Origin: a virus
Virus record (IMG/VR): IMGVR_UViG_3300033153_011881
Location: 1 to 49,124 of that record
Strand: one strand, 5' to 3'
Length of the DNA: 49,124 nt
This document shows positions 8,950 to 17,815 of this stretch, one piece after another. A program made the position numbers and the translations under genes. The notes under the pieces are model-generated. The model was not told the origin of the DNA. It searched no databases and saw nothing but the letters and a program-made list of their open reading frames with translations. Each line of letters starts with the position of its first letter. Within the stretch, counting starts at the first letter, position 1.

Positions 8950-10020
8950 TTACTCCCTGTATTCCTCCATCACAAATACAGGATCATAAACCAAAACCCA
9001 CCGGCCATCCCACATTCTTGCGAACACAAGTTTGATGTCAGTGCCAAACACGGTCAGAAAATACTTTGAAGTCTCATACTCCCATTCTACGGAAATATCG
9101 TCTATTGATACCGTTACTGCCCCCCACGGACACTCAGCATCTTCACCCTCTTTAAAAGTCATACTCAACCCGGACGCTTCTATTAAGGTTGTACCAGGCA
9201 GTGACCACATCCAATTACACTCGGAAGGATCGTGGACTATCGGATCAGGGTCAGGATCAATAGGGGGATTGTAAGGCGGCCAGAATGGGGCAAACGGGTC
9301 ATCATTAGGGTCATTATCTACAGGGGGATCATCCTCTCCGGTAGAAACGAAATTGCAATTACCTGTATGAGTAGGGGTTATTCCATTCGGTAGGGGGTTG
9401 CCGCTCGAATCCCAGCTTGCGGTAGCATACCATGCCTTATAGGCATTCGTGTCTATAGTCACCTCAAAATTGGAAGCTGCCAAGTTAGGGGCGCTTCGGC
9501 CATCATAGAGCACCTTTACATAGAGCCATTCACCGTCTGATGAGGGACTGTAATCCTTGACTATTGGTATGGTTCCGGAATGATTCCTGATACGTATATC
9601 ATTATCTCTAAATTGCTGAAGTGAGCCGCCAGAAAAACCTGCAGCAGATAGCCAGGGCAAGCCGTAAAAGTAGTCTTCTGATGCACTGGTACTGGTGCTA
9701 TATCCAGCTACATTGCACTGTGGCGGAAACCCCAACCGTACAACCACGCCGATCATCTGGTTCTGGGGACAGAACACGGCAAGGCTTACTCTATCCTTTA
9801 CGGCAGGCGGGATATAAAACCTGAAAAGCCACGTATTTTGTCTGCCACCCTGAAAACCCAGTTTCGTAGTTACGTTATCCGGATTATGCGTCATCTTGTA
9901 GCCACCCATCGGGTAAACAGACTTATATTGCGAAGCTGATTCCACTGCGCCGGAAACTGAAACACCCAGGAACAACACCGCCATAAAAATGACGGTTATC
10001 ATAATCGCTATTTTTTTCAT
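8950..10020 (-). CDS. Exported surface or tail-associated protein
   Basis: 356 aa. Sec signal peptide (residues 1-25, ending SVSGA), a beta-rich N-terminal half, a Pro/Asp-rich linker (DDPPVDNDPNDDPFAPFWPP) at about residues 225-250, and a C-terminal domain with paired Cys. GGAGGG precedes ATG 10020. No family recognised. The signal peptide, shared by four other genes in this cluster including the DGR target, suggests delivery to the periplasm or cell surface before or instead of assembly into virions. Confidence 0.6.
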   Translation of the reverse strand: MKKIAIMITVIFMAVLFLGVSVSGAVESASQYKSVYPMGGYKMTHNPDNVTTKLGFQGGRQNTWLFRFYIPPAVKDRVSLAVFCPQNQMIGVVVRLGFPPQCNVAGYSTSTSASEDYFYGLPWLSAAGFSGGSLQQFRDNDIRIRNHSGTIPIVKDYSPSSDGEWLYVKVLYDGRSAPNLAASNFEVTIDTNAYKAWYATASWDSSGNPLPNGITPTHTGNCNFVSTGEDDPPVDNDPNDDPFAPFWPPYNPPIDPDPDPIVHDPSECNWMWSLPGTTLIEASGLSMTFKEGEDAECPWGAVTVSIDDISVEWEYETSKYFLTVFGTDIKLVFARMWDGRWVLVYDPVFVMEEYRE

Positions 10021-10084
10021 AATACCCTCCGTTAAATTCCCACTATTTTTAATTTACTCGTTATCACTTTATTCCATACCTCCT

Positions 10085-10588
10085 TTAAAGTTTATAAAAA
10101 TGAATCATGTCTTTTTCGGGATCAGCTTTCCAGGCATCAAAATCCACTGGAGTAGACACCTCGCCATCAGCATCTTTATGCGGTTGGGGTTCAAAGAACC
10201 AAAGTTCTTTTGTATCGAGCATAATCAGATTAACGGCATGGCTTGTTCTATGCCCATGTAGCCTCGTGCACCAAACTTCTGCCACAGCCCATTCAAGTTT
10301 AGCAGAAGGCTCAAAGGCCCTGATTGACTGTAACCAAAGCACGTGGAGATCCGCCACCACTGCCACAGCCGCCGCCATGTTGGTGCACATCCAGACATCG
10401 TGGGTATATTCTATATTCTTAGCTATCATATTCCATTGCTGACCGATCATTTCATCCACGTTCTTCTTTGATGGCGCCCAGTAATCGAATCGTGGTATCC
10501 AGATAGATCTGGGGTTGTCATAACCCACTGTAAGGTGAGGCCACAGATCCTGTAACGCTCTCGATATTTCAGTGCTTGATACTTTCAT
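10085..10588 (-). CDS. Possible papain-like Cys/His protein (agglutinin C-terminal-like)
   Basis: 167 aa from ATG 10588 (AGGGAGG upstream; the longer frame to 10615 overlaps the 28-aa gene). A Cys at the start of a helix (DVWMCTNMAAAVAV), a His in SHAVNLIMLD and a Glu in WFFEPQ give a Cys-His-Glu layout seen in papain-fold enzymes such as the agglutinin C-terminal (MOA-like) proteases. This is a weak resemblance. It could be the unseen lysis enzyme or a proteolytic surface factor; not determined. Confidence 0.5.
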   Translation of the reverse strand: MKVSSTEISRALQDLWPHLTVGYDNPRSIWIPRFDYWAPSKKNVDEMIGQQWNMIAKNIEYTHDVWMCTNMAAAVAVVADLHVLWLQSIRAFEPSAKLEWAVAEVWCTRLHGHRTSHAVNLIMLDTKELWFFEPQPHKDADGEVSTPVDFDAWKADPEKDMIHFYKL

Positions 10589-10599
10589 TTTATCCTCCC

Positions 10600-10686
10600 T
10601 TATTTCACCCACCACAGAACAAACAGCAGTCCATTAAGTACTACCGACATAACCAGCATGGCCCTGAGCAGCTCGTTCCGTGTCAT
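10600..10686 (-). CDS. Small membrane peptide, 28 aa
   Basis: MTRNELLRAML followed by a transmembrane segment (VMSVVLNGLLFVLWWV) and a terminal lysine. GAGG lies 5 bases before ATG 10686. Another tiny late membrane protein, possibly a holin or holin regulator. Confidence 0.5.
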   Translation of the reverse strand: MTRNELLRAMLVMSVVLNGLLFVLWWVK

Positions 10687-10694
10687 TTCATCCT

Positions 10695-11174
10695 CTATTC
10701 AAAATCCATATTCTTAATCAACGCCAAAACAGCCTTATAGAGCTTCTTTAAACTGCTTTTCTGTGCTGTTGATAAAGCGCTGAACGTACTGTCAACATGC
10801 GTGTCAATCTGCGCGTAGGTCATGGCTGATATCTGAGCAAGCTTGTCTTGTGCCGTTGTACGATCTGTGGCAACACCCTCAATAGCTACCGTAGCCGTGC
10901 TGGACTCTGCCTCTGCAATAGCGTTTAAAACTTTTAATTTGGACGGCTTGCCCTGGATTGTGACGTAGTTATACCGGTAGAAAGTCTCTGCCTCCATCGG
11001 TCCATCACCATCCGGGTCCTTCTGGATTTCCTGGATGTTGTAATTATAATAGTAACTCTCCGGTGCGATTTTCTGAATAGTCGGCGGTGACGATTTGGAC
11101 TCCGCTGTTTCAGCAAATGTTGATGCCGGGCAGAGTAGGCAGATAAACGCTGTGATTATGAGCAGTTTTTTCAT
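10695..11174 (-). CDS. Exported helical protein next to the DGR
   Basis: 159 aa with a signal peptide (residues 1-21, ending STFAE). The mature part has a tyrosine-rich segment (SYYYNYNIQ) and a helical C-terminus rich in Ala, Thr and Ser. AAAGGAG precedes the ATG. Immediately downstream of the OB-like DGR gene. No family recognised; it might be a partner of the diversified protein at the surface (inference from position only). Confidence 0.6.
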   Translation of the reverse strand: MKKLLIITAFICLLCPASTFAETAESKSSPPTIQKIAPESYYYNYNIQEIQKDPDGDGPMEAETFYRYNYVTIQGKPSKLKVLNAIAEAESSTATVAIEGVATDRTTAQDKLAQISAMTYAQIDTHVDSTFSALSTAQKSSLKKLYKAVLALIKNMDFE

Positions 11175-11187
11175 TTTAGTATCTCCT

Positions 11188-11508
11188 TTAGCTAAAAATA
11201 TAATACCTGTTTATCTTCTTAATGGTTGCTGAAAATGGGATCTCATTCCCGTATTTTTCGATTTGCTTTATTAGTACGTCAGACCCCGTAAAAACAATCT
11301 TCACCTCGTGTTCAATCTTAATTTGCAGAGTCAAATATTTACCCGATTTGTTTTTAGAATAATTACTGTCACCAATACGATACCCGACAATCTCAATTTC
11401 CTGATTCAAAATGGTGTCCAGCTTTACTTTATCGCCATCTAAAACAGGCGGCTCTGTGGCAAAATCCGAAAAGCGTTTCTTCCGTTTTTCCGCCAATTCT
11501 ATCGTCAT
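11188..11508 (-). CDS. OB-fold-like protein coupled to the DGR reverse transcriptase
   Basis: 106 aa. A basic N-terminus (MTIELAEKRKKRFSDF) is followed by alternating beta strands with the pattern (L)NQEIEIVGYRIG...GKYLTLQIKIEHEVKIVFTG, suggesting an OB-fold nucleic-acid-binding domain; this is a fold guess without a motif. Its ATG overlaps the RT stop as ATGA, so translation is coupled. In the absence of an Avd gene it is the best candidate DGR accessory protein, perhaps binding template RNA or cDNA. Confidence 0.55.
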   Translation of the reverse strand: MTIELAEKRKKRFSDFATEPPVLDGDKVKLDTILNQEIEIVGYRIGDSNYSKNKSGKYLTLQIKIEHEVKIVFTGSDVLIKQIEKYGNEIPFSATIKKINRYYIFS

Positions 11509-12569
11509 GTGAATCTCTTTTCTAATGGGTTACTGAACCCGCCTCTCTCACACACATCCGCCAGTATTCCCTTGATTTTTTCGTCAACATGTCTGTGCCA
11601 CAGATTGAGGCAATTAGCATGCCTCATCCATCCGTGATAACTCATAATCGTACTGGCAATGGATACAGGATATTTTTCGTCGTATTTACCCCTCCGAATA
11701 GTGCGCATCTTCCGTTTGAATTCAAATGCGGTGGATTTCCGCAATAGCGTGTATCCCGGAAAAAACCGATACCCGAGAAAATCAATCCCGCGGGCAGCCA
11801 CAGGGTACACCTGCCAGTCAGATTTCAGAGTTAAGCTTAATCTGTCGATCAGGTAGGTCTCGATCTCTCTGCGGATCTCATGTAGTTTACTTTTGTCCGC
11901 TCCCAGAATCACCATATCGTCGCAGTATCGGATATAATATCGGCATCCCAGGCTTTCCTTAATCCAGTGGTCCAGACCGGTAAGATAGAGATTGCCAAAA
12001 TACTGGCTCAGGTAATTACCGATGGGTACGCCCTTATCTGTAGAATCTATAATCCGTCCCAGCAGCCATAACACATCCGGGTCTTTGATCTTTCGGGCCA
12101 GGATGCGCTTTAATATGCCGTGGTCAAGAGACGGATAGAACTTCTTCACGTCCATCTTGAGACAATAGCGGGTTCCCTCCGGATCGATCCTGAGGGCGTG
12201 CTTTATACACTTTACGCCCTTATGGATGCCGCGCCCCTTTAGACACGCCAGGGTGTCCGGAATTAGCCAGGGCACCCAGATAGGCTCGCAAACCTGCACA
12301 ATGCAATGGTGAATGATCCGATCCGGAAAGTAAGGCAGTTTATGAATCACCCGATCTTTCCGCCCCTTTTTCACAAACACCTTATAATGTGAGTTTTTGA
12401 ATATTTTATTCTTCAACATCGTCTGTATCCGTCCGAGATACATCCCCGGGTCCGCGTCAACCATGCGGACCTCATGATAATGGCTTTTGCCCTTTCGGGC
12501 GTTCTCATGTGCCATGCGGACATTGTCCATATCGTATATTTTGTGATACAAGTTTCCGTATCGTTTCAT
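11505..12569 (-). CDS. DGR reverse transcriptase
   Basis: 354 aa from ATG 12569. RT motifs in order: catalytic Asp in LKMDVKKFYPSLDH (about 140), GVPIGNYLSQYFGNLYL (about 180-196) with the SQ-containing motif 4 typical of DGR RTs, and YCDDMVIL (about 215-222) as the YxDD box. It makes cDNA from the template RNA that mutagenises the target gene 3' end. A TTG at 12650 would give 381 aa, but MKRYGNLYHKI at 12569 matches the usual DGR RT N-terminus; neither has a strong Shine-Dalgarno. No maturase or HNH domain, so not a group II intron. It lies directly after the template repeat. Confidence 0.93.
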   Translation of the reverse strand: MKRYGNLYHKIYDMDNVRMAHENARKGKSHYHEVRMVDADPGMYLGRIQTMLKNKIFKNSHYKVFVKKGRKDRVIHKLPYFPDRIIHHCIVQVCEPIWVPWLIPDTLACLKGRGIHKGVKCIKHALRIDPEGTRYCLKMDVKKFYPSLDHGILKRILARKIKDPDVLWLLGRIIDSTDKGVPIGNYLSQYFGNLYLTGLDHWIKESLGCRYYIRYCDDMVILGADKSKLHEIRREIETYLIDRLSLTLKSDWQVYPVAARGIDFLGYRFFPGYTLLRKSTAFEFKRKMRTIRRGKYDEKYPVSIASTIMSYHGWMRHANCLNLWHRHVDEKIKGILADVCERGGFSNPLEKRFT

Positions 12570-12864
12570 AAGCTGCTTATTTCGCCCTGGAGCGTTCGAA
12601 CCCTCCGGCCTACCAGCACCAAAAACGGGCCTTGCTTTGTGTTTTGCCAAGAGGCATGGTTTCAGACTCCAATGAGCTTTTTTTGCTTATCCATAAGCTG
12701 AGCTGCCCGCCGATATTCACATTGTCATTCGACGACGTGTTATTCGCATTGACGTAAAACGCTCCGGTGTTCGAGCTGTTATTCGCATTACTGCCGAATT
12801 TAACCACGCGCCAGCCGGGGAGCCTGAAACCAGTAAAAAGTTGCGTGCGTTCTGCGATTTGCGA
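12570..12864 (-). ncRNA. DGR template RNA region
   Basis: This 295-bp stretch between the target stop codon and the RT start carries the template repeat and no supported gene. It is probably transcribed with the RT as the template RNA. A 65-codon frame across it (12610-12807) is the untranslated template reading as VP-like codons, with ten AAC/AAT codons. Confidence 0.7.
12693..12818 (-). repeat. DGR template repeat (TR)
   Basis: 126 bp aligned without gaps to the VR at 12867-12992 (constant offset 174). Sense strand is minus. It has 34 adenines; 25 differ in VR, none of the other 92 positions differ (hand count). Adenines are concentrated in AAY (Asn) codons. Confidence 0.95.
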
Positions 12865-14865
12865 TTAGAAGCAGAGCCGCCCGCCGAAATGCACAACGTC
12901 ATCCGACGACGCGGCATGCGCAACGACGCAAAACGCTCCGGCGTACGAGCCGTAAGCCGCACTACCGCCGAAGCTAACCACGCGCCAGCCGGTAGACTGA
13001 TAATAGTAATCAGTAATATATGTAGAGCTTGACCCGCCAACCGCAGAGGGTAGGAATCCTCCTTTTGTTTGTTCTAAGGTTGTTTGATAACCATCCCCGT
13101 TATGCAGTGTAATCCCGCTGCCGCCGGTATCTAATAATTGACTGTACGCTGTAGTTGTGTCATCTGCAAAATCTGTCTCCGTGTTGGAGACATACGGGAT
13201 ATTATTGTTGATATTGATCCCATCAATCCACTGATAAATATTGCCATAGAAGTTTTCAATACCACGGTAGGTCATATAGGCATCTTCTGCACCGACATCG
13301 TCGGCATCGCCCGAATATTCGGCATTATTGGTTCCGTTTCCATCCCCGTTGGACAATCCTCCCTCAGAAATATAACTACCGTTTACCCATGTCCCGCTTG
13401 ATAGTTGTGTCCGACCTTCGCCGATGACATCCTGGCTATAAAACGACGCATACTCAACCAGATAAAGTAACTGAATGGCACTGTTTAAATAGAAGTCGAG
13501 CTGTCTCCAGCCAGCCCCACGGTTAAGGGCGATGGCCCTGAACTCAGCCCGTGTCTCATCGGTAATTGGGTTTTTTCCACTGACACTGCCAAGTATATCA
13601 TTAACTGTATCAATAGTGCCGCCGCTCCATCCCGTAGCCGCTGTATTACCGTGGTCAATATAAGCACTTGCGGAATCATCCCAGCCGACACCCTCATACG
13701 CCCCGATATACCTGTAATCTACCCAGGCCCCGTCTTTGTAGAACGCGGGATGTGGTTCGTAGCCCGGTAGTGCAACGCCTGATATGCTCCAAGAGTGGAC
13801 ATTTGTGGCCGCAACGTATGAATATTTATAGTAAAACTTCGGGATTTCGACCATAACCTGGCCGTCTGTACCGTCTAAGACGGAGGCAGTAGAGCAGTCC
13901 TCTTTATCCGTGCTGTCAGTGGCACAGAGGTAATATTGCACTACTCCGGCATCGCTGAGAATGCACCGTCGCATAGCCGCTTGGACAGGTAAGCAAACAT
14001 TGCCTGGACTTGATGCCGCTGCTATACCTGCCAAGGCTCCTGTACGAGTCAGTGTGGGGCTTGAATTATCCTCATCCCACGAAACACCATATGCCAACAG
14101 CCCCGCCATAGCGTAGCCAAGCCCTTCAGGGGTTACCGCCCTGTTTTCATCGGTGAACGCAGCCACTTCATCATTCGTGGCTATCTCCATCACGCCTGTA
14201 GCCGATGTCGTGGCAGATTGTTTTAATGCAGTGAACGCAGCCGCAGCCGTGCTCGCACCTGTGCCCCCATCAGCTATAGGGACATCTGTCCCGTCAGCTC
14301 GATATATATATTTTGCCCCGATAGTAACGGCTGTAGGGATATTTGCGCCCCACACAGGATCACTCCCGGGGCCGCCGCCGACAAGGATTTCAGTAGTCGC
14401 GCCGGCATCCCAGACTGTACCAGCCCCCACTAAAGCCGTTCCGTCAGCCCTCGTATAATCCAGGCATCTCCAATCCCCTGAAGCATATTCATAGAAGGCC
14501 GCAAGATCCCCGGCGGCAGTTGTGATGTTAGCCCCTGTCGGTAAAACCAAATCAGCCGAATGGGTGAGCTGAAGGATCGCGTCAAACTGAAGGACAACCA
14601 TCGTTCCAATGCCCTTCGAGGTAATCGTATTAATGGTCGTGGTCCCGGTAATATCAAAGAAATTTCCATCCCCCAGGGTCATAGCGTTTGCGCTTGCTAC
14701 GTCTGAGCCTTGATGAGTTTTGAGGGTCTTTCCGACGGTGACATCACCAGGAAATACGCCCTCGGACTTGCCGGGATTATTAAACGGGTTGCCCTGTTCG
14801 GCGTGGGCGAAGCCGGCGGTAATCAGTCCGGCCAGTATGAACAGTATTAAGGATATTCGTTTCAT
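12865..14865 (-). CDS. DGR variable protein with C-type-lectin-like C-terminus and signal peptide
   Basis: 666 aa. Residues 1-22 form a Sec signal peptide (MKRISLILFILAG, cleavage near AHA-E). Residues 23-330 are repetitive, Thr/Gly/Ala-rich and tail-fibre-like (DGTDVPIADGGTGAS). The C-terminal ~300 residues contain YRGIENFYGNIYQWIDG and GWRVVSFGG...GGRLCF, the pattern of the CLec/formylglycine-enzyme-like domain used by DGR targets. The last ~42 residues are the VR. Start ATG 14865 has GGAGG 8 bases upstream; the frame extends to 14997 but only through spacer repeats. Likely a surface or tail ligand-binding protein; export suggests it may also act on the lysogen surface. Confidence 0.85.
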   Translation of the reverse strand: MKRISLILFILAGLITAGFAHAEQGNPFNNPGKSEGVFPGDVTVGKTLKTHQGSDVASANAMTLGDGNFFDITGTTTINTITSKGIGTMVVLQFDAILQLTHSADLVLPTGANITTAAGDLAAFYEYASGDWRCLDYTRADGTALVGAGTVWDAGATTEILVGGGPGSDPVWGANIPTAVTIGAKYIYRADGTDVPIADGGTGASTAAAAFTALKQSATTSATGVMEIATNDEVAAFTDENRAVTPEGLGYAMAGLLAYGVSWDEDNSSPTLTRTGALAGIAAASSPGNVCLPVQAAMRRCILSDAGVVQYYLCATDSTDKEDCSTASVLDGTDGQVMVEIPKFYYKYSYVAATNVHSWSISGVALPGYEPHPAFYKDGAWVDYRYIGAYEGVGWDDSASAYIDHGNTAATGWSGGTIDTVNDILGSVSGKNPITDETRAEFRAIALNRGAGWRQLDFYLNSAIQLLYLVEYASFYSQDVIGEGRTQLSSGTWVNGSYISEGGLSNGDGNGTNNAEYSGDADDVGAEDAYMTYRGIENFYGNIYQWIDGININNNIPYVSNTETDFADDTTTAYSQLLDTGGSGITLHNGDGYQTTLEQTKGGFLPSAVGGSSSTYITDYYYQSTGWRVVSFGGSAAYGSYAGAFCVVAHAASSDDVVHFGGRLCF
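12867..12992 (-). repeat. DGR variable repeat (VR) in the target gene
   Basis: The last 42 codons or so of the target gene up to its stop. All 25 differences from TR are at TR adenines, changing about 20 residues, e.g. Asn to Ser, Ala, Tyr, Val, His and Asp. Invariant framework such as GWRVV, GAF and GG remains. Confidence 0.95.
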
Positions 14866-14879
14866 GGTTTTTACCTCCG

Positions 14880-14921
14880 ACTGCTTCGAGTTTTGAGTTT
14901 TGGGTTTTGAGTTTTGAGTTA
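14880..14921. repeat. Word repeat (GTTTTGA family)
   Basis: Spacer between the target gene and the 127-aa gene made of tandem 7-8-nt GAGTTTT-like words. Same style as the other intergenic repeat families. Confidence 0.6.
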
Positions 14922-14926
14922 TCCCA

Positions 14927-15310
14927 TTACTCGTAATATGTAATGGAGACCTTGGCCGCATAGGCTGATATAACAGACATCTGCGTTTCGCCTTCAATCC
15001 ATCGACAGATGGGGTTCAGTTCGCTTCCGGTCCCGTTATTTGTATCACCCGCGGGGATCGCAGCCGTCCCGGTCCCGATCCTGACCCAGATATCAGCGGT
15101 GGACGCGAAAATGACATACCGGGATCCGGTTGGAATGGTTATGGTCTTGGCAGCGCTGGCCGTCAACAGATATGTGTTCACATACCCCTGGGGAATGGCA
15201 AAGGTCTGATCCCCCTTGTAGTTCCGGAAGATCTTGAATGAATCAAGCGCCAAAGCGTTTGAAGCGATAAGCATAATTGCCGCTGTGATAATAATAAGTG
15301 TTTTTTTCAT
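14927..15310 (-). CDS. Exported small beta-rich protein
   Basis: 127 aa. Signal peptide (residues 1-21, NALALDS); the mature part resembles a small beta-sandwich with (T)ITIPTGSRYVIFAS and ends in SITYYE. It looks like a phage head-tail or adhesin-type beta domain but carries an export signal. GGAGGCG precedes its ATG. Its 5' end is duplicated as a dead copy at 15390-15476. It precedes the DGR target gene and may be a partner of it. Confidence 0.65.
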   Translation of the reverse strand: MKKTLIIITAAIMLIASNALALDSFKIFRNYKGDQTFAIPQGYVNTYLLTASAAKTITIPTGSRYVIFASTADIWVRIGTGTAAIPAGDTNNGTGSELNPICRWIEGETQMSVISAYAAKVSITYYE

Positions 15311-15327
15311 AGTGTTTCGCCTCCTGT

Positions 15328-15358
15328 TCTGGATACTGGATACTGGATACTGGATACT
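15328..15358. repeat. Word repeat family B (GGATACT), copy 1
   Basis: Tandem CTGGATA-type words between the 127-aa gene and its truncated copy. Joins directly to family A copy 1. Confidence 0.7.
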
Positions 15359-15400
15359 CGTTATTCGTCATTCGCTATTCGTCATTCGATTATTTTCTTT
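15357..15400. repeat. Word repeat family A, copy 1 (half)
   Basis: Left arm of the family-A hairpin (TTCGTCATTCG words and a TTTTCTTT loop), missing the right arm. The right end merges with the truncated signal-peptide ORF. Confidence 0.7.
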
Positions 15401-15476
15401 CATTTAATGAATCAAGCGCCAAAGCGTTTGAAGCGAAAAGCATGATTGCCGCTGTGATGATTAGTGTTTTTTTCAT
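15390..15476 (-). pseudogene. Truncated copy of the 127-aa exported gene
   Basis: A 28-codon frame whose first ~23 residues nearly copy the signal peptide of the 14927-15310 product (MKKTLIITAAIMLFASNALA) and then run into family-A repeat sequence to a stop. The DNA at 15408-15482 matches 15238-15318. Best read as a duplicated 5' end left after a deletion or repeat insertion. Confidence 0.7.
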
Positions 15477-15507
15477 GGTGTTTTTGCCTCCGTGAGTAAT
15501 TATTATT

Positions 15508-15564
15508 TTAGAAATAGAGACTAAGCTCCTTTTCGATTGCCCTTGTTTCGTCTTTTTGTAACAT
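15508..15564 (-). CDS. Possible 18-aa leader peptide
   Basis: MLQKDETRAIEKELSLYF with AAAGGAG 8 bases upstream of the ATG. Lies in the spacer between the tail protein and the exported-protein cluster. Too short for homology; included on ribosome-site evidence only. Confidence 0.25.
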   Translation of the reverse strand: MLQKDETRAIEKELSLYF

Positions 15565-15622
15565 TTTGTTTTCTCCTTTTAATTTTCGTTGACCAAAGAA
15601 GGGATCAGGTTCTTTGGGATTA

Positions 15623-17815
15623 CTAATAAACAAAATCTATATAATCCAATTCTACCGCTATGGAGGCTGCAAGAGGCCCTTCTGTGCTTAAAGATATCGT
15701 AAAATACTGTATTTCTTCCCCAGGAGCCATCGAAGCATATTGAGTGAGATCAATTACTGTTTCTTCCCCTAATGTAATAAGAGGCCTGATCCACTCAAGA
15801 CATAGAGCAGGCTTACTTCCGATTGTATAAGGTAGGGTGTCAATTATACCTTGTGACGCTGAAAAATATAGGCGAAGGCCTTCATTTGAGTTTTGTCTAA
15901 TATATATCATCCCGTACCCGTATTGATCTTCTCCGTCTAAATTAGCCTCCGCAATGTTTAAAAATTTAAACTTGAGAGTTCCAAGGAGGGGGTGTTCCTC
16001 GTCTGGATTATATCTGTCTCGCTCCCAAACAATAAAATTAAATAAACTTTGGCCGGCATTGCTGTGACATTCTAATTGAAGACTGTAATTTTGCCTGGAA
16101 GACTCATCCGGTTTCTCAATTTCGTTGAGCTTCATAATCCCGGTTCCACCATTATTCTCCTCATCATCATAAATCCAGGTTGTATCAGGGGGACAAAGAA
16201 GATACTCAGGCATCCCTTCCATATAACACGCCCAATTCTGATTTGCACAAAACGTTGCTCCAAACTCTTCCCATTTTGCAAAATGAATATAATCAATGCT
16301 AAAATTTATGTTTCCTCCCAAGTTCCCCATTCCAAAAAAACCTATTCGGTCAATAGGGTCACCAGGCTCAAATAACTCAAACCTCTCCTCAAAAAGATCA
16401 AGAATTAATTCTTCCCCCACTTCTATCTCATCACCAATCCATACATATTTTCTATCAACAGGTGATGCTGGGGCTTTATCAGTCGCATAAGCAAACCAAA
16501 GTATTAAAAGTTTCCCTGCTTCAGATTTAATATATATATTCCCCTCTACATATGGATACGGCCCGCTGTAATCATAACTATAATTAGAAAACTTAATTTT
16601 TATTTTCCGGCCTAATACGTGTGGCATTGAATCGGATTCACTATTGTAAACGTCCATCTGAGCAAGCGATGTTGTGTTATCATCTTCATGATGCACAGTA
16701 TTGCAAGTCATTGAAATTACTTCATTTTCAAGGGAAAGATCAAGGTAGCTTCCATACTGACCAGTTTCATTAATAGGTAAGGTCACGCAAGAATCTTGAT
16801 AATGAAGCTGATCACCATCTATATATGCCCCCACTTCCCACTCATGTTTTCCGCAAATCAAATCATCTTCCCAATCTTCCCAATAATCTGTTTCTGATTC
16901 CAAGAGCTGCATTACATCTTCATATAAAGTACCATCTCCAAAAATAATCATATCGGTTTCTTTCCACCAATCACCCTCTGTATCCTTAGCTAAATACTGA
17001 GTTGTCTTATATCCTCCTTTCATATATCTCACCCAAAAAGGGCCTGAGCAATCGTAACCCTCTTGGTCACGATTTAAGGCAAATCCCCAATACTCCTCAT
17101 CTTCATCATATTCAAGGTTTATCACACTTTGAGCTACCTGTTCTTCGTTGTAGACTGAGAATAAAACACCCTCGATCAAAGCAGGACCATCGGCACCAAC
17201 AAGCGAAAAACGAAAAAAACAGCAAGCCTTCGGCTCACTCTTAAACCCGATCACTTTAGGGTTTATCCAATTATTATTTGCATCATGGCTAAGCTCTACG
17301 ATCACCTCATCACCATCACTAAAAGCTGAAGCGTCACAGTCCATATATTCGATAGGAACATCTCCAAGTGATGTTTCCTGATTGACATCCAAGCTCTTCC
17401 CGTCAGGTGTGTCAGTTGCCAAGCAAGCCTCTAAGGTCAAATCACACTTATCTGTGTCGCTATAAATATGGGTTATGGTTCCGTATCTGTATTTAGTACG
17501 CCACTTTTGCCAGCCGGGACGCATGGCCCAGTTCCAGTACACCTCGCCTGTGGGGGATGTTGCCGGGAACGGCTGGATCTGTTTCATGGCGCCGTCCCGG
17601 GCAGCGTCATAGACGGCATTTCCATCATGCCCCGGCTGTATGTTCACACCCTTGTCAATATCCCCTGCGATCTCGATCACACCCACCTCTCCGGAGAGAT
17701 CCTCTGTCTTATCGGCGCACCAGGCCTGCATGGTCTGATTATCACCATCGAGCATGTCAATCTCGACATTATAATCGCCATCCGCTCCACCGCTGACTAT
17801 GGTTCCCTTGCTCAT
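15623..17815 (-). CDS. Large tail / receptor-binding candidate
   Basis: 730 aa. The N-terminal ~130 residues (MSKGTIVSGGADGDYNVEID...) are GC-rich and look like a conserved phage tail attachment domain; the remaining ~600 residues are acidic, Trp/Tyr/Cys-rich and encoded by clearly more AT-rich DNA. Two related beta modules occur (SIDYIHFAKWEEF and VELDYIDFVY endings), suggesting duplicated carbohydrate-binding-like domains. Located after the tape-measure and baseplate genes, where lambda J-like or fibre proteins lie. Specificity domain likely acquired by exchange (inference). Confidence 0.6.
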   Translation of the reverse strand: MSKGTIVSGGADGDYNVEIDMLDGDNQTMQAWCADKTEDLSGEVGVIEIAGDIDKGVNIQPGHDGNAVYDAARDGAMKQIQPFPATSPTGEVYWNWAMRPGWQKWRTKYRYGTITHIYSDTDKCDLTLEACLATDTPDGKSLDVNQETSLGDVPIEYMDCDASAFSDGDEVIVELSHDANNNWINPKVIGFKSEPKACCFFRFSLVGADGPALIEGVLFSVYNEEQVAQSVINLEYDEDEEYWGFALNRDQEGYDCSGPFWVRYMKGGYKTTQYLAKDTEGDWWKETDMIIFGDGTLYEDVMQLLESETDYWEDWEDDLICGKHEWEVGAYIDGDQLHYQDSCVTLPINETGQYGSYLDLSLENEVISMTCNTVHHEDDNTTSLAQMDVYNSESDSMPHVLGRKIKIKFSNYSYDYSGPYPYVEGNIYIKSEAGKLLILWFAYATDKAPASPVDRKYVWIGDEIEVGEELILDLFEERFELFEPGDPIDRIGFFGMGNLGGNINFSIDYIHFAKWEEFGATFCANQNWACYMEGMPEYLLCPPDTTWIYDDEENNGGTGIMKLNEIEKPDESSRQNYSLQLECHSNAGQSLFNFIVWERDRYNPDEEHPLLGTLKFKFLNIAEANLDGEDQYGYGMIYIRQNSNEGLRLYFSASQGIIDTLPYTIGSKPALCLEWIRPLITLGEETVIDLTQYASMAPGEEIQYFTISLSTEGPLAASIAVELDYIDFVY

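Follow-up and report, generated by a model that had tools for sequence, protein, structure and literature searches.

A predicted OB-fold accessory gene beside the reverse transcriptase of an Avd-less phage diversity-generating retroelement

Which protein assists the reverse transcriptase (RT) of a diversity-generating retroelement (DGR) on a contig that has no Avd gene? The question is raised by a DGR at positions 11188-14865 of IMG/VR record IMGVR_UViG_3300033153_011881, a 49,124 nt stretch of viral DNA (the window) that makes up the whole of contig C324 in an assembly of 341 contigs and 4.02 Mb. DGRs act in nature as targeted hypermutators. In phage BPP-1 the transcript of a template repeat (TR) and its spacer recruits the RT, which makes complementary DNA (cDNA) from the TR 3′ end onwards and miscopies adenines; homing then carries this cDNA into a variable repeat (VR). 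The well-studied BPP-1 DGR needs Avd, its RT acts with Avd, and it has been reconstituted in a laboratory strain of Escherichia coli (PMC12875486; this and the other PMC papers are cited from excerpts). Avd, HRDC and MSL are the accessory proteins named for DGRs (PMC10053308), and roughly one DGR in four is said to be without a recognisable accessory gene (PMC7290462). No bAvd gene was found on the window contig. The open reading frame at 11188-11508, next to the RT gene, is on sequence grounds a conserved accessory gene, here termed ACC, that went unrecognised in a preliminary description of the locus. We consider it about 75% probable that this is a recently active DGR whose RT works with ACC, a protein of predicted OB fold that probably binds nucleic acid, instead of with Avd.

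All parts of the cassette are on the minus strand. The target gene (12865-14865) codes for a phage tail protein of 666 aa from its ATG and has the VR (12867-12992) at its 3′ end, where it covers the last 41 full codons. The TR (12693-12818) comes next, followed by a 120 nt spacer (12573-12692), the RT gene (11505-12572, 355 aa) and ACC (11188-11508, 106 aa), whose ATG overlaps the RT stop codon (ATGA). The spacer, for which a single RNA fold was computed, matches the RT-recruiting spacer of BPP-1 in position. Coordinates and frames thus bear out the complete target-VR-TR-RT cassette on one strand that the preliminary description had proposed.

The same description had reported a gap-free TR/VR alignment with changes at adenines only, and direct comparison at an offset of 174 gives the same result. 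The 126 columns are ungapped and hold 25 differences, 13 A>G, 6 A>C and 6 A>T, at 25 of the 34 TR adenines; the non-A differences that had been named as a contrary sign did not appear (0/92), a zero that hinges on placing the TR/VR boundary where A-restriction stops, at 12818, because short patchy similarity 5′ of 12818 has non-A differences. The chance of all 25 differences landing on the 34 adenines is 3.2e-19. The TR contains 10 AAY codons, and adenines are changed at 15/17, 8/14 and 2/3 of codon positions 1, 2 and 3, respectively, altering 20 of the 41 VR codons, all 20 nonsynonymously. A run-finder over 9001-16000 returned this pair as the sole one, and it is also the longest direct repeat in 9000-17000, where it is listed as 124 nt. 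The last two columns at the 3′ end (A>C, T=T) could be chance. A GC-rich CGGCGGGC common to TR and VR may be a candidate for an initiation of mutagenic homing site (IMH/IMH*), yet A changes continue to the VR end. As a possible hairpin behind the VR, only a 5-bp stem with a 15-nt loop was found.

The RT translation contains both the IGNYLSQ motif and the YCDD box ascribed to it earlier. It matches phrog_1423 (1.9e-116), and its best PDB sequence match is 8ub7, a reverse transcriptase that we take to be that of BPP-1 (5e-43), the first RT of group II intron type (6ar1) being far behind at 3e-15. An alignment against known DGR RTs, suggested in the preliminary description, was run; the window RT aligns and groups with them, in a tree that contained no group II intron RT, and the grouping with group II introns that had been set out as the contrary outcome did not appear. 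An (I/V/L)GxxxSQ motif is a feature of DGR-type RTs (PMC3521204). As far as sequence can tell, the window RT is of DGR type and not a group II intron RT. Its start is more likely the ATG at 12572 than the TTG at 12650, because relatives align from about there.

ACC itself has no credible match in Pfam, PHROGs or PDB when the window sequence is used, and the ACC family has none in NCBIfam. Searches of Pfam, NCBIfam and PDB sequences with one protein and two alignments gave weak scattered matches only, which were dismissed as chance; toxin chains are among them, at E 0.18 or poorer, and none of the three databases lists a sequence match to SSB. In a diverse ACC alignment, 24 of 29 members match phrog_19665, a family of unknown function, at E 0.01 (best 8e-51), and the window ACC itself does not. 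A scan of 395 genomes of the same phylum with phrog_19665 found nothing, which is uninformative because this family misses the window ACC too. The A5 profile found 1/395 over the genomes of the phylum, the window only, and an assembly-contig search with an 8-row ACC alignment gave two loci, both in metagenome-assembled genomes. ACC proteins are mostly basic, with a median isoelectric point of 8.6 (n=156); the value is 9.5 for Avd (n=67) and 9.05 for the window ACC.

The occurrence of ACC is tied to DGR RTs. A search of viral contigs with the single ACC sequence gave 14 loci, 13 with a DGR RT; the 14th, L057, is incomplete and encodes a relative of the target. When an ACC profile was used, 76 loci among the best 80 of 210 matches carry a DGR RT. 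Over both ACC queries a DGR RT is present in 85 of 90 loci, the five others being incomplete (L057, L090, L104) or orphans (L137, L140). The RT of crAss-like phage cr55_1 was used as a query not conditioned on ACC, and ACC is found in 75 of the best 80 of 411 matches; four of the remaining five are incomplete behind the RT and one, L289, is without ACC. With the window RT as query, 22 of 42 loci have ACC, 18 are without it and 2 are incomplete. Thus the linkage is not merely a product of the ACC queries, because two RT-only searches also recover ACC. Named phage records gave 21 loci, 4 with ACC, 3 with Avd and 14 with neither. These raw locus counts include the same contig from several queries.

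ACC lies directly behind the RT gene, one gene further, upstream of the RT gene, or within the RT polypeptide, and its start is often inside the RT gene or where that gene ends. In L281, whose RT has 411 aa, the final 96 residues share 51% identity with the free ACC of L021. The RT C-terminus of hankyphage p00 shares 35-37% identity over ~105 residues with two free ACCs, those of L018 and L034 (pairwise E=1e-19 and 5e-19). Such RT-ACC fusions occur at two places of the RT tree. The C-terminal tails of the L154, L313, L314 and L030 RTs are moderately ACC-like (hhalign probability 72%, P 3e-5), and these four loci were counted as having neither ACC nor Avd. As a separate observation, a close relative is found at L044:285-758 (same contig as L078, IMGVR 3300009374_000549), with an ACC 78% identical to that of the window; the RT of L044 aligns solely at residues 1-107 and 309-362, so that its catalytic core seems missing while ACC is retained.

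ACC and Avd were not found together. The ACC, Avd and RT profiles were built here from the sequences of this analysis, and removal of loci with identical RT DNA reduced 295 loci to 250; of these 148 have ACC, 60 Avd, 36 neither and none both, and 6 are incomplete. The window DGR belongs to this large set of Avd-less DGRs with ACC, a protein of ~100 aa. Fifty records, selected from an initial list of 88, were searched for the Pfam family bAvd (PF22296), which was found in 9/9 records of BPP-1 type and in 0/41 of the others. bAvd does not appear among the Pfam matches of two ACC alignments, one of 17 and one of 29 members, and PF05635 is found in the assembly on contigs C177, C151 and C257, not on the window. 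In an RT tree of 187 sequences (90% dereplication, midpoint root; 117 ACC, 41 Avd, 26 neither and 3 incomplete), the three states require 13 changes, versus a minimum of 58 in 200 shuffles, and 26 changes when placement is distinguished. All 41 Avd RTs fall into a single clade (support 0.75), joined by ANMV-1, which has ACC (0.98), and then by 30 ACC-bearing RTs (0.97).

The nesting of the Avd clade among ACC lineages would suit a broader reading, in which a large part of phage DGRs uses ACC for the work of Avd in BPP-1, the handling of TR RNA or mutagenic cDNA, and Avd is a later replacement in the BPP-1 branch; ACC would then have escaped notice through its small size and its usual place behind the RT gene or inside it. 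We hold this broader reading only tentatively and give it somewhat less than an even chance. The order of replacement in particular is only suggested, because the root is a midpoint root and the sampling was driven by queries.

The lack of Avd on the window could also mean that the host or another element provides Avd in trans, and that ACC has another role, such as regulation or protection of cDNA from host nucleases or defence. The same assembly does have a bAvd gene, on contig C339, where it adjoins the start of another DGR RT. However, C339 may be mis-binned (assembly contamination is 5.83%), the RT piece on it shows 46% identity over 41 residues, and each of the 41 Avd-less records would need a host in which Avd is available in trans. 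We therefore consider a supply in trans improbable. Contig C339 (L325:1488-4393) deserves mention as the start of a second, Avd-type DGR; it has a 719-residue open frame with a C-terminus that by eye is FGE-like, the bAvd gene and, where the contig ends, the opening codons of an RT; no TR/VR pair was found in its 4.4 kb.

A structure for ACC was predicted with AlphaFold. The model of the window ACC (17 rows) has a pLDDT of 86 and that of the C-terminal domain of the L281 RT (29 rows) a pLDDT of 93, and both display the OB order of strands and helix. The OB fold is a five-stranded barrel with a helix between strands 3 and 4. ACC is thus predicted to be an OB-fold protein. Structural neighbours include a RuvB-like OB domain, SSB, PriB, LEF-3, POT1, RPA and PRD1 P12, with Z values of 4.3-6.9, values that, being <8, may mean just a common arrangement; many of the neighbours are OB domains, and those listed after the RuvB-like domain are single-strand binders. 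Foldseek against the predicted viral proteins of BFVD gave four rows at E<=0.001, the best named as an RT-domain protein, the second as a group II intron-encoded protein and two uncharacterised; further down, ranks 12 and 18 are also RTs.

Related loci were used to assess activity of ACC-bearing DGRs. A-restricted TR/VR pairs are present in 37/42, 69/85 and 67/80 loci of three queries (contig repeats included). Eleven contig pairs, picked for near-identical RTs and differing VRs, were then compared. An absence of non-A differences between the VRs of relatives is forced by the way TR/VR runs are selected; the rest of the contig was relied on as a control instead, and VR differences were counted whole, A and non-A together. 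Seven near-identical pairs of ACC-bearing contigs differ by 12-20% in the VR versus 0.05-0.8% elsewhere. In L239/L240 the VR differs at 20/117 positions, the TR at 0/117 and the remainder at 7/6744; in L049/L050 the numbers are 13/103, 0/103 and 3/5735, and in L002/L003 21/104, 0/107 and 8/5925. The TR is likewise without differences in L002/L004 (VR 20/104, elsewhere 34/6034), L003/L004 (11/89, 50/6145), L228/L229 (16/116, 42/5031) and L236/L237 (11/79, 16/4944). Four pairs were set aside: L025/L026 has no VR coverage, the TR itself differs in L130/L132 (5/117), and L047/L084 (87/2809) and L242/L243 (246/3831) are more divergent elsewhere. Since change concentrates in the VR in the seven pairs, DGRs of the ACC type work in nature. 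For hankyphages of Bacteroides thetaiotaomicron, DGR activity with A-position diversity in culture has been described (PMC12135933).

The activity of the window cassette bears on the possibility that it is a relic whose VR was rewritten once and whose DGR is now inactive. Only a single VR allele of the window phage is at hand, as a relic would have it. On the other hand, the RT, target and ACC frames are open, the 92 non-A positions show no drift, and near-identical relatives bear different VRs; a relic thus seems very improbable. The preliminary description had termed the activity recent and repeated. "Recent" fits the absence of drift at non-A positions, and "repeated" is unreadable from one VR copy of the phage, VR-limited variation having been seen in its relatives only.

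Several points weigh against a recently active DGR in which ACC takes the place of Avd. The genes L137:4932-5360 and L140:4938-5294 are ACC genes with no DGR RT within 7.2 and 10.3 kb; they are possibly orphans or another use of the same fold. Seven loci (L007, L008, L009, L012, L014, L016 and L017) have RTs 54-60% identical to that of the window (over part of the length for L016 and L017) and neither ACC nor Avd, so that related DGRs may do without ACC. By the custom profiles 36 of the 250 distinct loci have neither gene; judged by these sequences, ACC is common, not universal. The non-overlap of ACC and Avd may reflect descent, and not functional replacement, because both follow RT clades. 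Foldseek against PDB found nothing at E 0.001 for either ACC model, which stands beside the low Z values. No second VR allele of the window phage was found, and the contig pairs were a picked set.

Some of these points would also suit a different explanation, namely that ACC belongs to a tail or lysis module and merely travels with the cassette, while the RT needs no partner. The DGR adjoins tail genes, in many of these phages the RT is followed by a further gene as well (X2, below), and the 36 loci without ACC and Avd as well as the two ACC orphans would be expected. Against this, ACC is fused to the RT at two places of the RT tree, and it shifts its place around the RT yet remains in the cassette. 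We consider a passenger gene unlikely, and ACC is probably, on the sequence evidence assembled here, the missing helper of Avd-less DGRs.

The following course may be proposed. By analogy with BPP-1, the TR RNA with its spacer would recruit the adjacent RT, cDNA synthesis would begin at the TR 3′ end with misincorporation at template adenines, and the mutated cDNA would take the place of the VR with which the tail-protein gene ends. ACC, made beside the RT or as part of it, most likely serves as the physical partner of the RT and would bind and hold the TR RNA or the growing single-stranded cDNA; it could act at priming, synthesis or homing. Such a small OB-fold gene, tied in Avd-less DGRs to the RT and sometimes fused with it, offers a concrete candidate for the missing part that experiments can test. 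If true, it would represent a second architecture for targeted mutagenesis, and it would provide an annotation marker for phage DGRs.

The target product matches the tail protein family phrog_5302 (1.7e-91). No match to Pfam was found at E 0.01, and for a C-type lectin fold neither Pfam nor PDB gave a match across the lectin part at the cut-offs applied. By eye, its N-terminus resembles a signal peptide, as does that of the product of 10695-11174, which is unusual for tail genes. Upstream of the target gene are two 59-nt copies (15234-15292 and 15403-15461), 93% identical and 169 nt apart.

The cassette is located behind the tail genes of the contig. On the minus strand ahead of it are an integrase, two primase-like genes, a ParB-like gene, large terminase, portal, head protease and tape measure genes, and by its sequence the contig reads as a phage or prophage. 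Rfam at gathering thresholds gave no match in the window, a tRNA search found none, and no terminal repeats >11 nt are present within 400 nt of the contig ends. The gene next to ACC (10695-11174, minus strand, 159 aa) has a weak match to phrog_11557 and was left out of the DGR; by eye it is X2-like. X2 genes, of ~105-160 aa and alike by eye only, follow the RT in many related phages, before or after ACC; copies are at 10695-11174 of the window, L047:4369-4686, L048:2071-2403, L154:4729-5064, L309:1572-1916 and L319:3805-4290. The L047 and L154 copies have no credible match in Pfam.

No OB-fold accessory protein of DGRs is described in the excerpts of the DGR literature consulted, and ACC is provisionally regarded as new; surveys of 2018 (10.1093/nar/gkx1150) and 2024 (PMC11661182) could contain it, the latter being cited for "alternative accessory factors". 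In the main text of PMC8144416 neither "accessory" nor "Avd" occurs.

Comparison with known systems places the window cassette as follows. BPP-1 (mtd-avd-TR-brt; AY029185) has the same order of target-VR, TR and RT and the same A-restricted rewriting of a tail protein, with an RT 31% identical to that of the window. However, in BPP-1 Avd (PF22296) lies between target and TR and there is no ACC, whereas in the window ACC lies behind the RT. The DGRs of "lineage 3" in crAss-like phages share the target-VR-TR-RT order and a phage tail target, and are treated as avd-less (PMC7290462); most of the crAss-like loci examined differ in having no separate ACC, and the moderately ACC-like tails mentioned above belong to three crAss-like RTs, plus L030. 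In Bacteroides phage Versailles (ON453897) a tail protein, RT and ACC are all present, but ACC is one gene behind the RT, which is 42% identical to that of the window.

The hankyphage p00 (BK010646) also has a phage tail-fibre DGR with an ACC-type domain, which differs in being the C-terminus of the RT itself. An Avd-like open reading frame has been pointed out in the hankyphage by charge and size (PMC6199706), and the RTs of B. thetaiotaomicron hankyphages are said to differ (PMC12135933); the hankyphage RT compared here is that of p00. In the archaeal virus ANMV-1 (KP703175) the target and RT are followed directly by an ACC homolog, AJP62065, recorded as a hypothetical protein and 48% identical to the window ACC. 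The ANMV-1 RT is 33% identical and adjoins the Avd clade in the tree; a figure legend of the ANMV-1 paper (PMC4372165) names an Avd open reading frame, which was not identified in this analysis. The arrangement of target, RT and an ACC directly behind it is thus common to the window and ANMV-1.

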